Assembly (NCBI GenBank): GCA_003695505.1
Contig: RFIY01000272.1
Location: 1 to 13,778 of the forward strand
DNA from: J088 sp003695505 [NCBI: Candidatus Dadabacteria bacterium]
GTDB lineage: Bacteria; J088
Reading direction: 5' to 3'
Length of the DNA stretch: 13,778 bases
Under the pieces are notes generated by a model, which saw only the letters and a list, made by a program, of their open reading frames with translations, was not told the origin of the DNA and did not search any database. Of this stretch, positions 1,558 through 8,054 are shown piece by piece (positions within the stretch are counted from its first letter, which is position 1; each line of letters opens with the position of its first letter). A program made the translations under genes and the position numbers.

Positions 1558-2706
1558 TTACATTTGCTTGCGCAGGAAGGCCGGCCGGCTGCGCTCATCG
1601 TCATCGTACGGAGGCTTACCGAATCGCTCATAGACGGACTCACCCGGAGCATTGGCAGCCGCGCGCACGCGATCGCCCGTCAGCGTGGTGTCCTGCGTAC
1701 GCTGAGGCGCGGGTACGGCGCGCAATGGCGGAGCCACCGCCTGCTGTTGCGCGTTGCCAAACCCTGTTGCCAGAACGGTGATGCGCACCTTGTCGCCAAG
1801 CTTGGGATCCTCAGCGACACCCATAATAATGTTTGCTTCTTCGTGTACGCGCTCCTGAATGAAGCTGCACGCTTCATTGATTTCCTGCAGCGTCAACGAA
1901 TCCGTCGCAGAGAAGTTGACAAGGACGGCCGTTGCGCCGTCGATGTCCGCGTCTTCAAGCAGGGGGCTCATGATGGCCTGCTGCGCAGCATCGATAGCCC
2001 GTGTGTCTCCGGAGGCCTCGCCCGAACCCATGACCGCCATACCCCGGTTCGCCATAACGGTTCGCACGTCGGCGAAGTCGGTGTTGATGATACCGGGCAC
2101 CGTGATCACGTCAGAAATGCCACGCACCGAATCATACAGTACGAGATCGGCCAACCGGAATGCGTCCTTGAAGCTGGTATCCTTCTTGGCCAGCGACAGG
2201 AGACGATCATTCGGGATCGTGATCAGCGTATCAACGGTACCGACCAGTTCCTGCACGCCATACTCCGCATTTCGCGCCCGCTGGCGTCCTTCGTACGAGA
2301 ACGGCGTCGTCACGATCGCGACGGTCAATGCGCCGACTTCCTTTGCGACCTGAGCCACGATTGGCGCCGCACCGGTACCGGTGCCCTTACCCATTCCGGC
2401 AGTCACGAACACCATGTCGGATCCTTCGAGCACTTCACGCAACCGCTCGCGGTCCTCTTCGGCGGCCTGCCGCCCGACACTGGGATCCGCGCCAGCGCCA
2501 AGCCCCTGTGAGATCTGGGTACCGATCTGAATCTTCGTCGGCGCAAGTTTTGTGTCCAGCGCCTGGGCATCGGTATTGGCGACGATGAAATCTACGCCGT
2601 CCAGGCCGCGCATGATCATCGTGTCTACGGCGTTTCCGCCACCACCTCCGACGCCGATCACCTTGATCGTCGCCTGCGTCTTCGGCTGTTCCAGTTCGTA
2701 AATCAT
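1558..2706 (-). CDS. ftsZ: Cell division GTPase FtsZ
   Basis: FtsZ is the tubulin-like GTPase that polymerises into the cytoplasmic Z-ring and recruits the divisome. The 382-aa product from this start matches the E. coli length (383). Visible features are IKVIGVGGGGGNAV (14-27), NTDAQAL (44-50), the T4 loop GMGKGTGTG (104-112), FADVRTVM with the T7 synergy residues N208, D210 and D213, a short linker (~320-365), and the C-terminal peptide RPAFLRKQM that binds FtsA. The T4 loop has Lys where the family has Gly (E. coli G106). The ATG at 2704-2706 was chosen because MIYELEQ aligns with the usual FtsZ N-terminus and AAGGAG lies 8 nt upstream. An in-frame GTG at 2809-2811 with a perfect AGGAGG is a real alternative and would add 35 residues. 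It is the last gene of the cluster. The rest of the protein looks full length and functional. Confidence 0.95.
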   Translation of the reverse strand: MIYELEQPKTQATIKVIGVGGGGGNAVDTMIMRGLDGVDFIVANTDAQALDTKLAPTKIQIGTQISQGLGAGADPSVGRQAAEEDRERLREVLEGSDMVFVTAGMGKGTGTGAAPIVAQVAKEVGALTVAIVTTPFSYEGRQRARNAEYGVQELVGTVDTLITIPNDRLLSLAKKDTSFKDAFRLADLVLYDSVRGISDVITVPGIINTDFADVRTVMANRGMAVMGSGEASGDTRAIDAAQQAIMSPLLEDADIDGATAVLVNFSATDSLTLQEINEACSFIQERVHEEANIIMGVAEDPKLGDKVRITVLATGFGNAQQQAVAPPLRAVPAPQRTQDTTLTGDRVRAAANAPGESVYERFGKPPYDDDERSRPAFLRKQM

Positions 2707-2808
2707 TTCCTGCTCTCCTTGCATGTGCCCCGTCCCCCGGGACGTTGTCTGGTTTGAAAACATATCGATCTGTTCGGGTGCCGACTCTGTCTGCGGGTCT
2801 GCTTCGTT

Positions 2809-2823
2809 CACGTTCGTCCTCCT
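2809..2823 (-). promoter_or_regulatory. Strong ribosome binding site plus alternative GTG start for ftsZ
   Basis: Directly at the ftsA stop codon the minus strand reads AGGAGG (2818-2823, sharing the A of TGA), then a 6-nt spacer, then GTG (2809-2811) in frame with ftsZ. The 34 codons between this GTG and the ATG at 2706 contain no stop. Initiation here would give a 417-aa FtsZ with a polar, Glu/Gln/Thr/Ser-rich tail, and would shrink the ftsA-ftsZ gap from 116 to 11 nt, in line with the compact cluster. Whether ribosomes use this site, the downstream ATG, or both cannot be decided from sequence alone. Confidence 0.5.
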
Positions 2824-4061
2824 CAGAACATCGCAGCCATCAGTTCGCTGAACCATTCGCTCATCCGCGTCCGTACGCGGCGGAACATTCCTCCGTCGCG
2901 TGAACGAAAGCGATCCGCCCCGTCATACTTGAGGCCATACAGCATCAGGCCAACGCCAGTGGAATACTGCGGGCTCGCCACAATATCCGCAAGCCCCTTG
3001 ACGTTGCGCGGACGTCCGAGTCGGCAAGGCAGGCCCGTGATCACTTCCGCGTATTCCACGAGTCCCTCGAGCTGCGACGTCCCGCCAGTGAACACGATCC
3101 CGCCGGCGAGCAGATCGCGGTAACCCGACTCTTCGATCTGATAGGCAACCGCGCAGAGAATTTCTTCGACACGCGCCTGAATGATTCTGGCCAGCTCAGC
3201 CCGCGGTTCGCTGCGGGGCGGGCGTCCGCCCACCGATGGCACATCAATCATCTCGTCGGCGGAAACGGCATCGACATGGGCGATGCCGTACTTGCGCTTG
3301 ATGCGCTCGGCGTGGCGCGCCGGCGTGCGCATACCGACCGACACGTCACTGGTCAGATGATTCCCGCCGAGGCTGACAACCGATGTATACTTCAGCGTGC
3401 CCTCGGTAAAGATTGCAATGTCGGTTGTTCCCCCGCCGATATCGACGACGGCGACACCGAGTTCTTTTTCGTCCTGGGTCAGACAGGCTTCGGCACTGGC
3501 CAGTTGCTGCAGCACGATGTCCGAAACGTGCAAACCGTTCCGATTGGCACAGCGAATCAGGTTTTGTGCCGATGTGACTGCCGCTGTCACGATGTACACC
3601 TTGGCTTCCAGGCGCAACCCGCTCATGCCGATCGGCTCACGAATCCCGTCCTGATCATCGACGATGAATTCCTGCGGCAGGATGTGAACGACCTCGCGAT
3701 CGGCCGGGATATTGACCGCCCTCGCCGCATCGACCACGCGATGGATATCGGTCTCGCGAATTTCACGATCGCGAATCACCACCATGCCCTTGCTGGTCAT
3801 GCCGGCGATATGGGACCCGGAGATGCCGATGTAGACATCGGACAACTCCCGACCGCACATGACTTCGGCCTGTTCGACAGCTTCTTTTATCGACTCGATC
3901 GTCGACTCGATATTCGCGACCACACCGCGATCGAGACCACGCGACGGTGCGGCGCCAACGCCGATCACGTTGATTCCGCCCTCGCTATCGGGCTCGCCAA
4001 CGATGCAACAGATCTTCGTCGTTCCGACGTCGAGACCTACGATTAATGGTTCGGGCTTCAT
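2823..4061 (-). CDS. ftsA: Cell division protein FtsA, actin-like membrane tether of FtsZ
   Basis: FtsA is an actin-fold ATPase that ties FtsZ filaments to the inner membrane and recruits later division proteins. The 412-aa product has the phosphate-1 motif DVGTTK (11-16) and the 1C domain after ~85. The phosphate-2 motif DIGGGTTD is at 207-214 and the adenosine motif GIVFTGGTSQLEG at 321-333. The C-terminal stretch FRRVRTRMSEWFSEL is an amphipathic, membrane-targeting helix. The sequence around 126-160 and 180-216 looks more like deltaproteobacterial-type FtsA than E. coli FtsA; this is a judgement from memory. The ATG is preceded by AGGAGG (4066-4071) with a 4-nt spacer. A 35-nt gap separates it from ftsQ. 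The ribosome binding site region is the exact complement of part of the loop at 1474-1482. Confidence 0.96.
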   Translation of the reverse strand: MKPEPLIVGLDVGTTKICCIVGEPDSEGGINVIGVGAAPSRGLDRGVVANIESTIESIKEAVEQAEVMCGRELSDVYIGISGSHIAGMTSKGMVVIRDREIRETDIHRVVDAARAVNIPADREVVHILPQEFIVDDQDGIREPIGMSGLRLEAKVYIVTAAVTSAQNLIRCANRNGLHVSDIVLQQLASAEACLTQDEKELGVAVVDIGGGTTDIAIFTEGTLKYTSVVSLGGNHLTSDVSVGMRTPARHAERIKRKYGIAHVDAVSADEMIDVPSVGGRPPRSEPRAELARIIQARVEEILCAVAYQIEESGYRDLLAGGIVFTGGTSQLEGLVEYAEVITGLPCRLGRPRNVKGLADIVASPQYSTGVGLMLYGLKYDGADRFRSRDGGMFRRVRTRMSEWFSELMAAMF

Positions 4062-4096: not shown

Positions 4097-4819
4097 TCAG
4101 GCTCCGTCAATTTGTCTGTGTTGATGTGGGCGAATCGCGACGCGACCTTCTCCAATCACGGTCAGGACCGCGGGCTGGATGCCAACGCGCTGTGCCTGTG
4201 TCCACGCATAGGCGACCTGGCGAAGCTGTGGTCCGACTGGCGCGTCACGAAAGCGGATCGGCGTTCCGTCGTCCAGAACGACGGTCACACGTGTGCCATC
4301 CATCCGAATTTCACTGAGTTGCTGTAACCATTCCGGTGCCTCATGGTCGAGCAGCGCCAGAAAACCGACGGCCTGCGTCAGGCAGGCGCCCGCGCCGGCG
4401 TCAAGCAGGTCGCGAACCTCGGGCAGCGGACATCCTCGCACGACCGGCCGATCCCACAGGGCAATGCCCTGGTCGGCGCGCAGACTGGCCGGACGGACTG
4501 CGCGGTCCAGTAACAACACGCGTCCATCCTCACCAAGTGCCATCACATACGGAGACCGCTCGTCGACCACGATGCGCAATGTCCCGTTCCACTGCCGCTC
4601 GACCTGTGCATCCTGTAGCGGGATGGCTGCAAGCAGCTCTCGCCGCAAAGACGCAGGATCCACATCTCCAACCTCGCGGGGCAGGTGCTTCCGCAGCCAG
4701 GTATGGAGCGCCGCTTCAGTCAGTGGGGTCGCCCCGAGCACGGTGACGCGCCGCACGGGTACATCCGGGAGCGCGCACGCTCCCAGCAACAGGACACTTG
4801 CGAGAATCAGATAACGCAT
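4097..4819 (-). CDS. ftsQ: Divisome protein FtsQ/DivIB with a lipoprotein-like N-terminus
   Basis: FtsQ links early and late divisome proteins and binds FtsB/FtsL through its periplasmic domain. The 240-aa product has a POTRA domain (about 22-90: VRRVTVLGA, a VDPASLRREL helix, then IPLQDAQVERQWNGTLRIVV and DERSP). The FtsQ beta-domain follows (about 91-230, including IRMDGTRVTVVLDDG). The N-terminus is odd. MRY is followed by nine hydrophobic residues and LLGAC with C15, which fits a lipobox, and the POTRA domain starts about seven residues later. There is no cytoplasmic tail, and the hydrophobic stretch is only ~15 residues. The start is forced: the nearest in-frame stop (4856-4858) is 12 codons upstream, with no ATG, GTG or TTG between. 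It overlaps ddl by 13 nt and has GAGG upstream. Two more Cys (C130, C146) could form a disulphide. The family call rests on domain pattern and position between ddl and ftsA. Confidence 0.88.
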   Translation of the reverse strand: MRYLILASVLLLGACALPDVPVRRVTVLGATPLTEAALHTWLRKHLPREVGDVDPASLRRELLAAIPLQDAQVERQWNGTLRIVVDERSPYVMALGEDGRVLLLDRAVRPASLRADQGIALWDRPVVRGCPLPEVRDLLDAGAGACLTQAVGFLALLDHEAPEWLQQLSEIRMDGTRVTVVLDDGTPIRFRDAPVGPQLRQVAYAWTQAQRVGIQPAVLTVIGEGRVAIRPHQHRQIDGA

Positions 4820-5736
4820 TTGAGCCTCGCTTGCAACGCAATCCGCTCGACGAGCTCATCAAATCTGAGACCCGCGGCCGCGGCCATCTTGGGAAGCAGG
4901 CTGTGTTCAGTCAGCCCCGGCGTCGTGTTGACCTCGATGAAGCGGAGATCCTGATCGCCGACCAGGAAAAAGTCGATCCGCACGATGCCCTCGCAACCAA
5001 CGGCCTGCCAGACCTCGAGCGCCTGGCGATGCAGCTCGCCACGAACACCGTCCGCAAGTTCCGGCGTCAGGATATAACGGGTGTGACCGCTTTCATATTT
5101 GGCGCTGTAGTCATAGAAAGGTCGATCCGTCTCGATTTCGATATCACCGAGGACTTCGCCCTCAAAAACACCCACCGACAGCTCCCGTCCGGTCAGGAAG
5201 GTTTCAACAATGGCGCGATCGTCCACGCGCAACACTTCATAGATGGCGTCGATCAGTTCGTCGGCACTGTTGGCCACGGCTGTTGCGACACTGGATCCGC
5301 CCTGTACGGGCTTGACGATCACAGGGAAAGACCAGTCATCGGGAAGCGAGAACCAGTCCACTTCGCCAAGACCGACCGTTGTCCAGCGAGGTTGCCGTAC
5401 GGAGGTGCCACGCAGCAGACGGCGCGTCAGAGCCTTGTCCATCGCCACGGCGCTTGCCGCAACACCTGTACCGGTATAGGGGATCCGCATCATCTCCAGA
5501 AATCCCTGCAACGTTCCGTCCTCGCCGAGCGGCCCATGAGCCGCAATCCAGGCGATTTCGGGACGAGCGTCAAGCATGGCGCGCAGTCCGTCTGGCGTGG
5601 CCTCGACTTCTGTCACTGTGTAGCCCTGCCGCCGCAAACCGGCCGCAACCGCGGCGCGTGACCGGCGACTGATCTCGGCCTCGGGTGAAAGCCCGCCACC
5701 AATCACGGCGATGGTCATTGATTCAGTCTTCATCAT
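4807..5736 (-). CDS. ddl: D-alanine--D-alanine ligase
   Basis: Ddl joins two D-Ala with ATP to make the dipeptide that MurF adds to the UDP-MurNAc-tripeptide in the cytoplasm. At 309 aa it matches DdlB-type enzymes (E. coli 306), with an ATP-grasp fold. Residues equivalent to E. coli DdlB are visible: E19 in GGGLSPEAEIS, HGPLGEDGTLQG (68-79), the ATP-binding K142 in IVKP, S148 in QGGSSV, YDYSAKY with Y214, R253 and D255 in RIDF, and N270 in EVNTTPG. The Tyr in the YDYSAKY loop points to D-Ala rather than D-lactate as second substrate. The start ATG at 5734-5736 has GGAGG six bases upstream; a second ATG follows immediately. It overlaps murB by 14 nt and ftsQ by 13 nt. Confidence 0.96.
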   Translation of the reverse strand: MMKTESMTIAVIGGGLSPEAEISRRSRAAVAAGLRRQGYTVTEVEATPDGLRAMLDARPEIAWIAAHGPLGEDGTLQGFLEMMRIPYTGTGVAASAVAMDKALTRRLLRGTSVRQPRWTTVGLGEVDWFSLPDDWSFPVIVKPVQGGSSVATAVANSADELIDAIYEVLRVDDRAIVETFLTGRELSVGVFEGEVLGDIEIETDRPFYDYSAKYESGHTRYILTPELADGVRGELHRQALEVWQAVGCEGIVRIDFFLVGDQDLRFIEVNTTPGLTEHSLLPKMAAAAGLRFDELVERIALQARLKCVI

Positions 5737-6718
5737 CGTGTTCCTCCGCGGGGTCTCCGATAATCCGAACCTCCTCCTCGAGCCGGATTCCAGTCTCTTC
5801 GTACACCTTCTGACGCGCGAGTCGAATCAGTGCAAGGATGTCCCGCGCCGTGGCACCGCCAAGATTGACGATGAAATTCGCGTGCTGTTCACTGATCTGT
5901 GCGGCGTGCAACCGTACGCCCTTCAGCCCTGCGCGTTCGATCAGTTCTCCTGCCGAGCCGTTTTCGGGATTGCGAAACACCGAGCCACAACTGGGCAGAT
6001 TCAGGGGCTGCGTCGCCTTGCGGCGCGCAATGTGTTCGTCAATGGCCTGCCGCGCCAGGGATGGGTCGTCGCGTTCGACCTGCAAAATGCCCGACACGAT
6101 GACCGAACCCGGCGGAAATTGACTGTGCCGATACCCGTAACCGATTCGCTCGACTGGAACGGTTGTGAGCTTTCCGTCCCGCTTGACGATGTCCACGCTT
6201 TCGACAAACTGACCGATCCAGGTATGACGATCTCCGGCATTCATCCGCAATGCGCCGCCGACCGTCCCCGGCGTTCCCCCCAGGGGGGCCAGAGACCGCC
6301 ATCCGTGCTGGCGCGCGGCCTTGATCAGTTGCCCGAGTGGAGTTGCCGCGCCGACATGGATGCGATCGCTGTCACCGAGCGGCTCGACATCAATACCCGA
6401 GAATTTTGGCCCGAGTGTGATCACGACCCCGCGGAAGCCGCCGTCCTGCACCAGCACGTTGCTGCCGCGCCCCAGTACGACTGATGGGATCCGGTTCGAC
6501 GCAATGACCTGCTGCACCTTCGAAAGTGCGTCGAGATCCGGCACCCGCACCACGACGTCCGCCGGACCACCCGTCCGCCAGGTCGTCAAACCGGACAGCG
6601 GCTCGTGTTCGCGCAGATGCTCCGGACCGACGATCTCGCGCAACACATCGACCACGGCCGGGTCGACGTGACGCCGCTCTTCGATCAGCAGCTTACGCCA
6701 GTGTTTCTGCGAACTCAT
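5723..6718 (-). CDS. murB: UDP-N-acetylenolpyruvoylglucosamine reductase, type II MurB
   Basis: MurB reduces the enolpyruvyl group of UDP-GlcNAc-enolpyruvate with NADPH and FAD to give UDP-MurNAc. The 331-aa product has RTGGPAD (48-54) and the FAD-binding stretch GRGSNVLVQDGGFRG (83-97). It also has LGGTPGTVGGALRMNAG (146-162), YRHS with R197, GSVFRNP with the proton-donor Ser S246, ISEQHANFIVN (275-285), and LEEEVRIIG with the expected catalytic E316. The GSVFRNP form and length indicate the shorter type II enzyme. The ATG at 6716-6718 was chosen for GGAG five bases upstream and for the family start. The frame is open further upstream, but that would sit deep inside murC. It overlaps murC by 26 nt. 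The acidic tail EEHDDED overlaps the ddl start. Confidence 0.95.
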   Translation of the reverse strand: MSSQKHWRKLLIEERRHVDPAVVDVLREIVGPEHLREHEPLSGLTTWRTGGPADVVVRVPDLDALSKVQQVIASNRIPSVVLGRGSNVLVQDGGFRGVVITLGPKFSGIDVEPLGDSDRIHVGAATPLGQLIKAARQHGWRSLAPLGGTPGTVGGALRMNAGDRHTWIGQFVESVDIVKRDGKLTTVPVERIGYGYRHSQFPPGSVIVSGILQVERDDPSLARQAIDEHIARRKATQPLNLPSCGSVFRNPENGSAGELIERAGLKGVRLHAAQISEQHANFIVNLGGATARDILALIRLARQKVYEETGIRLEEEVRIIGDPAEEHDDED

Positions 6719-8054
6719 GCGCTCTCCGTGTAATATCGCCGGCTCCAAGAAACAAAACGACATCCCCGCTGGTGCAGACTTGTCCAAGATGGCGAACGAG
6801 TTCATCCGCAGCGACCCAGGTGGCATCGGGATGACCCGCCTGTTGCAGGGCCGCCGCAAACCGTGCGCCATCGACCCCCGTGCGCGGCCGTTCTCCGGCG
6901 GCATAGACATCGGTCACGACGACGCGATCTGGACGCAACAGCACAGACCGAAAGTCGTCCCAGAGATCCGCGAGCCGAGAAAAGCGGTGGGGCTGGAATA
7001 CCGCCGTCACTGGTTGTTGCCAGCGATGACGCGCCGCGTCCAGTGTCGCGCGAATCTCGGCAGGATGATGGCCGTAATCATCGACGACAATCGGGCCGCG
7101 GTCGCTGAGCACTTCAAAGCGCCGCTCGACCCCTGGAAAACTCGCCAGCGCTGCAGCCGCGTCCCGCACGGACGCGCCAGCTTCAATGGCGACACCGATC
7201 GCGGCCAGGGCGTTGCGAACATTGTGACGCCCGGCGAGGGGCAATACGACCTGCCCGACCGGCTCTCCATCGACGGTCAGCTCGAAACGCGTACCGTCAC
7301 CGACGTCGACCTTTCGCGCCTGCAAATCCGCCGGCGCATCGATCGCGAATGTTCGTACCGGACGTCGGATAAGCGGGCGCAGGGCGGCCAGCTCCGGGTC
7401 GTCCTGCCCGAGCAACACGGTTCCATAGAACGGGACGGCATTTGCGAACTCGACCACACCATCCTTGAGTGCGTCAAAGCTTCCCCAGTACTCCAGATGC
7501 TCGCGGTCAATATTGTTGATGACGGCAATCACGGGCCGCAGGCGCAGAAAACTGCCGTCGCTTTCATCTGCCTCGACGACAACCAGTTCCCCCTGCCCGA
7601 GCTTCCCATGCCCTCCAAGTGATTTGACGCGCCCGCCAATCACGACCGTCGGATCGAGGCCACATGTCTCCAGCACATGTGCAATCAGGCTCGTCGTCGT
7701 GGTCTTGCCGTGAGCACCGGCGACCGCCACTCCAGGCTTCAGCCGCATGAGCTCCGCCAGCATTTCGGCGCGATGAATGACCGGCACACGCAGCCGCTCC
7801 GCCTCTGTCAGCTCCGGATTGTCGTCCGGGATGGCCGTCGAACGGACCACGACGTCGGCATCCGCGACGTTCTCGGCTGCGTGTCCGATCGCGATCCGCG
7901 CGCCACCGGCTCGCAGGCATGCAATCACGTCGCCTTCGCGAACATCCGAACCCGACACGGCGTACCCGAGATCCAGCAGGATCTGCGCGAGTCCGTTCAT
8001 GCCGGTTCCGCCGATCCCGACGAAATGTACACGGTGAACGCGTCCGAGCTTCAT
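6693..8054 (-). CDS. murC: UDP-N-acetylmuramate--L-alanine ligase
   Basis: MurC adds L-Ala to UDP-MurNAc with ATP, the first step of stem peptide assembly in the cytoplasm. The 453-aa product is of normal length and has the three Mur ligase domains. The UDP-binding motif GIGGTGM is at 13-19. The P-loop AGAHGKTTTTS (112-122) and the conserved EADESDGSF (161-169) and NNIDREHLEYW (180-190) define the central domain. The C-terminal domain has RRFEV (311-315), DDYGHHPAEI (325-334) and QPHRFSR (354-360). The ATG at 8052-8054 forms a 4-nt ATGA overlap with the murG stop and has GGAGG seven bases upstream, so translation is probably coupled to murG. Confidence 0.97.
   Translation of the reverse strand: MKLGRVHRVHFVGIGGTGMNGLAQILLDLGYAVSGSDVREGDVIACLRAGGARIAIGHAAENVADADVVVRSTAIPDDNPELTEAERLRVPVIHRAEMLAELMRLKPGVAVAGAHGKTTTTSLIAHVLETCGLDPTVVIGGRVKSLGGHGKLGQGELVVVEADESDGSFLRLRPVIAVINNIDREHLEYWGSFDALKDGVVEFANAVPFYGTVLLGQDDPELAALRPLIRRPVRTFAIDAPADLQARKVDVGDGTRFELTVDGEPVGQVVLPLAGRHNVRNALAAIGVAIEAGASVRDAAAALASFPGVERRFEVLSDRGPIVVDDYGHHPAEIRATLDAARHRWQQPVTAVFQPHRFSRLADLWDDFRSVLLRPDRVVVTDVYAAGERPRTGVDGARFAAALQQAGHPDATWVAADELVRHLGQVCTSGDVVLFLGAGDITRRAHEFAETLA

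Follow-up and report, generated by a model that had tools for sequence, protein, structure and literature searches.

A tail-less FtsQ with a predicted lipoprotein signal in the division gene cluster of one bacterial genome

The window, by which we mean the whole stretch of 13,778 nucleotides analysed, carries a division cluster in which the ORFs and their family matches give the gene order ddl–ftsQ–ftsA–ftsZ (Table 1). The ORF between ddl and ftsA encodes FtsQ, an identification based on synteny, profile and fold; its place in the cluster, ahead of ftsA, is the one expected for FtsQ/DivIB. Elsewhere in the cluster, the longest ORFs for murB (5723–6910, minus strand) and ftsZ (1558–2856, minus strand) both have N-terminal extensions, with family matches beginning at residues 97 and 64, respectively, and their true starts probably lie further downstream.

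Table 1. Positions of the genes and protein features discussed in the text, numbered along the window
Feature	Position	Strand	Basis
ddl, D-alanine–D-alanine ligase	4807..5736	(-)	NCBIfam NF002378, 308.5 bits, cut-off 243
Translation start region of ftsQ: GAGG 4825–4828, ATG 4817–4819	4817..4828	(-)	Sequence
ftsQ, 240 aa, between ddl and ftsA	4097..4819	(-)	ORF, POTRA_1, FtsQ profile, fold match
Predicted type II signal peptide, residues 1–14 (MRYLILASVLLLGA)	4778..4819	(-)	Sequence; PS51257-like and G+LPP patterns; helix 2–15 in model
Cys15, predicted lipidation site (+1), with Ala at +2 and Asp at +5	4775..4777	(-)	Codon TGC; lipobox L-G-A-C
POTRA domain, residues 21–88	4556..4759	(-)	PF08478 match; strand-helix-helix-strand-strand in model
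Beta domain, about residues 89–231, including the last strands	4127..4555	(-)	Alignment to FtsQ–FtsB entries 5z2w and 6h9o
ftsA	2823..4061	(-)	TIGR01174, 465 bits, cut-off 175.85

An FtsQ-type POTRA domain is present, POTRA_1 (PF08478) scoring 29.5 bits against a cut-off of 23 (E 9e-7), and a profile built from the FtsQ loci of other genomes, with the window sequence left out, matches the protein over positions 11–216 of 217 (E 3.1e-20). FtsQ_DivIB_C (PF03799) falls below its cut-off of 21 (15.5 bits, E 0.033); matching this weak score of the beta domain, the same family gave nothing over threshold anywhere in the genome. The AlphaFold2 model, derived from 45 sequences (pLDDT 88.1, pTM 0.76), consists of a helix at residues 2–15, then the POTRA domain and then the beta domain. 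The top ten Foldseek chains are all FtsQ or FtsQ-containing divisome entries, nine of them with E < 0.001, and VIA-align gives Z-scores of 14.4–15.2 to 5z2w, 2vh1, 8hhf, 6h9o and 2vh2; the match to 5z2w_A has a Z of 15.2 (rmsd 4.0, 194 residues), compared with at most 8.6 for the BamA POTRA domains. In E. coli FtsQ, the last strands of the beta domain form the FtsB-binding edge. These are also present here: the profile match runs almost to its end, and the alignments to 5z2w and 6h9o reach residues 236 and 235 of the model, respectively. We considered whether the genome (G000) has another FtsQ of the normal kind and rejected this, as the sole PF08478 match is the window ftsQ, in a genome that is 84.5% complete and in which absence is, therefore, not proof. 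The beta domain also contains Cys130 and Cys146 (4382–4432, minus strand), which could form a periplasmic disulfide.

The Shine-Dalgarno core GAGG lies 5 nt upstream of the ftsQ ATG, and the start overlaps the 3′ end of ddl, the stop codon of which is at 4807–4809, by 13 nt; there is, therefore, little space for a longer N-terminus. Further upstream, the frame is closed by a TGA at 4856–4858, immediately preceded by a second stop, and no ATG, GTG or TTG is present among the 12 codons from this TGA to the ATG. The ddl family match covers residues 3–304 of 309, near to the end of that protein. In another frame, an ATG at 4857–4859 overlaps the TGA and opens a run of 14 codons (MSSSSGLRCKRGSN; 4818–4859, minus strand), which carries three basic residues, lies within the 3′ end of ddl and continues to the ftsQ start; joining it to ftsQ would need a frame slip.

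Residues 1–19, as translated from the ORF, read MRYLILASVLLLGACALPD. The layout is that of a lipoprotein signal: an n-region, MR, is followed by the hydrophobic YLILASVLLLGAC, and both the PS51257-like and the G+LPP lipobox patterns are matched. The sequence-only reading had reported the stop at 4856–4858 with no start codon after it, a lipobox-like LLGAC with Cys15 within the first 19 residues, and an FtsQ that has no cytoplasmic tail; the first two were confirmed on rereading, and the third is borne out by the profile, the fold and the N-terminus. The charge-free stretch comprises 16 residues; among 229 FtsQ the median is 20, so that the window value is below the median without being extreme. 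Indeed, runs of 12–15 charge-free residues are found in other FtsQ, so that a short hydrophobic stretch cannot by itself exclude a membrane anchor, and we dropped the argument that its length alone disproves a membrane helix. Judged as a bitopic protein, the window FtsQ has no tail, a feature that varies across the family, and its 16 charge-free residues would fit either a short helix or a signal peptide. The Pfam lipoprotein attachment model has no match in the window FtsQ; it was discarded as uninformative because lipoprotein-like controls of the same genome also fail, three of four giving no match and the fourth falling below the cut-off. Additionally, the A-C-A that precedes Leu17 would suit signal peptidase I.

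The genome encodes both Lgt (PF01790, E 1.1e-62) and LspA (PF01252, E 1.4e-20, profile positions 3–101 of 142, at a contig end), the pair of enzymes looked for in an organism with lipoproteins, as well as LolA (over cut-off) and FtsB (PF04977, 66.7 bits, over cut-off). An FtsL-like ORF of 84 residues (L123:3587-3841, plus strand; DivIC score 25.3, below cut-off) adjoins an upstream mraW-like ORF, the latter being recognised by eye with no family call. In this FtsL-like protein the hydrophobic stretch is preceded by only about two residues, so that FtsQ and FtsL of the organism would both be nearly without a cytoplasmic part.

When crude gene calls for 225,274 bases of this genome (the window among them) were scanned with Cys allowed at positions 14–30, a lipobox signal was found in 14 of 224, which is a rough rate only, because the crude caller missed some lipobox ORFs, a Pal-like one included. 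In the pattern-positive genes, FtsQ (Cys15) among them, the Cys falls at positions 14–22, and five of the 14, including FtsQ and BamD, have Ala at +2. The mature proteins would begin CASTQ (predicted BamD), CARNP (Pal-like) and CALPD (FtsQ). FtsQ, then, shares its signal length, a basic residue near the start and the lipobox with the predicted lipoproteins of its own genome (BamD, the Pal-like protein and others); unlike BamD and the Pal-like protein, it is otherwise a bitopic division protein and must meet FtsB at the inner membrane.

Other FtsQ were collected from the loci of other genomes, found through FtsA, POTRA_1 (PF08478) and the FtsQ of L184, the window genome's own loci having been excluded beforehand. 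The profile was searched against 310 sources (309 loci and the window), 298 of which matched at ≥ 20 bits; removal of duplicates, and of FtsQ without a covered POTRA start, left 271 distinct FtsQ, window included, in a sample that is uneven, being biased to genomes with a query-like FtsA or POTRA. The strict G+LPP lipobox occurs in one of the 271, the window FtsQ, and the looser PS51257-like pattern in three (the window, L058 and L075). Neither L058 nor L075 was accepted as a lipoprotein FtsQ: both proteins have long tails, the match falls towards the end of the helix, and an internal start would be required. A bare four-letter lipobox within the 40 residues before the POTRA domain is found in 6 of 177 FtsQ (L040, L073, L075, L079, L203 and the window); L040, L073, L079 and L203 were rejected, since they match in these four letters only and in neither of the fuller patterns. 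Moreover, the distance from the first start codon to the POTRA domain, with a median of 61 residues (n = 257 with a complete 5′ end), is 21 residues in the window FtsQ, the second shortest of the 257; it is 19 in L296, which has a GTG start and no Cys in this region, and 27 in the next. The suggestion from the sequence-only reading of a plausible type II signal peptide is supported by both patterns, by the shortness before the POTRA domain and by rarity in the sample.

A comparison is offered by the phylum of G297: of 132 genomes searched with the L184 protein, 55 had a match, and FtsQ were taken from the best 30 of these. The 28 new sequences that are complete at the 5′ end (from L330–L358) have 27–34 residues before the POTRA domain and match no lipobox pattern; like that of L184, they are tail-less, with an N-terminus that resembles a signal peptide or a short anchor. 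The stretches of L184 (LLLLGAAYGVKSYP) and L330 (LLLLGAGYGLKSYP) are short helices without a lipobox, and contain an LLLLGA[AG] close to the window stretch, with Ala or Gly where the window has Cys. Tail-less FtsQ are not rare and recur across the sample (G297 and 28 genomes of its phylum; L008, L012 and L022; L095), whereas a convincing lipobox does not recur. These proteins resemble the window FtsQ in having few or no cytoplasmic residues and a short hydrophobic N-terminus, but have 27–34 residues before the POTRA domain, as against 21, and none of them matches the lipobox patterns. The window FtsQ looks like a further step from a tail-less form of the G297-phylum type. With the FtsQ of E. 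coli and Yersinia (2vh1, 2vh2, 5z2w, 6h9o and 8hhf) it shares the POTRA domain, the beta domain to its last strands, a gene that precedes ftsA and an FtsB in the same genome; the difference lies in the N-terminus, FtsQ being described in an excerpt of PMC8998562 as bitopic in the inner membrane, with a membrane helix and a small portion in the cytosol, whereas the window protein has a predicted signal peptide of 14 residues and a lipobox.

From the sequence, we consider it probable that this one genome encodes a true FtsQ in which only a lipoprotein signal peptide is left of the ancestral tail and signal anchor, and which would be held by lipid at the inner membrane. Residues 1–14 would direct Sec export, Lgt would attach diacylglycerol to Cys15, and LspA would cleave between Ala14 and Cys15, leaving the POTRA domain to begin some 6–9 residues from the lipid. 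The lipidated protein would then stay on the periplasmic face of the inner membrane, retained by a sorting signal, by its grip on the bitopic FtsB and FtsL, or by both, and would act as an ordinary periplasmic scaffold, its periplasmic domain still binding FtsB; lipidation, cleavage, final membrane and function are all what we infer for this protein. Excerpts of two papers place the FtsB–FtsQ contact in the periplasm (PMC8998562 and PMC7733951); because of this, the FtsQ helix would be unnecessary for the contact, and an inner-membrane lipid could take its place.

The same N-terminus could instead be an uncleaved, very short signal anchor with no cytoplasmic tail, Cys15 being incidental and FtsQ working as the usual bitopic protein. 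That tail-less FtsQ recurs, with 28 examples from the G297 phylum that have 27–34 residues before the POTRA domain and no lipobox, speaks for such an anchor, as do the charge-free runs of 12–15 residues elsewhere; moreover, because the short helices of L184 and L330 have nearly the same stretch without the Cys, the Cys after LLLGA in the window FtsQ could be fortuitous. However, the window FtsQ is at least six residues shorter before the POTRA domain than the G297-phylum forms, it is missing the post-helix linker of the aligned relatives (such as SPYF), its stretch is ended after Leu17, at 15 residues, by Pro18 and Asp19, and the strict lipobox is found in the window alone of 271 FtsQ; on balance, an uncleaved anchor is rather unlikely.

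Two further alternatives concern processing and the start of the protein. Signal peptidase I might cut after A-C-A, a site with Ala at both −3 and −1, to leave FtsQ soluble in the periplasm and held only by FtsB and FtsL. An intact lipobox, however, is normally modified by Lgt first, both Lgt and LspA are encoded in the genome, and the A-C-A site has a Pro at +2; even with a periplasmic FtsB–FtsQ contact in its favour (excerpt of PMC8998562), a soluble FtsQ seems very improbable. Still harder to credit is an incomplete N-terminus, in which a frame error hides a tail in the 14 other-frame codons that open at 4857–4859. Such a stretch does exist, but no clear Shine-Dalgarno core precedes its ATG, in contrast to the GAGG of ftsQ; it would also create a 53-nt overlap with ddl, the family match of which extends nearly to the end of that protein. 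The lipoprotein reading would in any case survive a frame slip, because the hydrophobic stretch and the LGAC would be unchanged.

If the lipoprotein reading is adopted, there is the further matter of the membrane in which the lipid would reside. Under the E. coli rule, a lipoprotein with Ala at +2 is sent to the outer membrane, and the sequence-only reading had found this residue hard to reconcile with FtsB binding. The concern holds in so far as the predicted BamD and the Pal-like protein of the same genome share Ala at +2, but it leans on the E. coli rule: according to an excerpt of PMC6469965, the Asp +2 retention signal is less common outside enterobacteria, and is present in 3 of 17 inner-membrane lipoproteins of Pseudomonas. 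Retention at the inner membrane appears more likely than an outer-membrane location because FtsB must be reached. Since BamD and the Pal-like protein carry Ala at +2, a lipid-anchored FtsQ could also be sorted to the outer membrane as they would be, spanning the periplasm to FtsB; we regard this as improbable, but, if true, FtsQ itself would, in this lineage, link the outer membrane with the machinery that builds the septal wall.

A lipoprotein FtsQ is, overall, a well-supported prediction from the sequence of a single genome. In open-licence PMC, none of the papers listed, as judged by titles and the openings of abstracts, deals with FtsQ or DivIB as a lipoprotein, and phrases naming such a protein did not occur. 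Were FtsQ to be held by lipid in nature, neither the cytoplasmic tail nor the membrane helix would be needed for division, and the protein could serve as a construct with which to examine the role of the helix; additionally, a core division protein would be subject to the lipoprotein pathway and to inhibitors of that pathway. How a lipid anchor might evolve is suggested by the tail-less FtsQ of 28 G297-phylum genomes.

The window FtsQ protein matched its own genome only, among 59 genomes searched (own included), and had no plasmid match. The best match to the window FtsA in the contig scan is 60% identical among the matches listed, and the best non-self FtsA across 386 genomes searched (own included) is also 60% identical; all other genomes listed are related to that of the window only at the level of domain. 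In a FastTree phylogeny of FtsA, FtsZ and MurC (110 rows), which was flagged for the meeting of long branches such that no sister group can be named, the window falls among deltaproteobacteria-like lineages, on a branch that is long and weakly placed. The genome possibly represents a poorly sampled, deep lineage.
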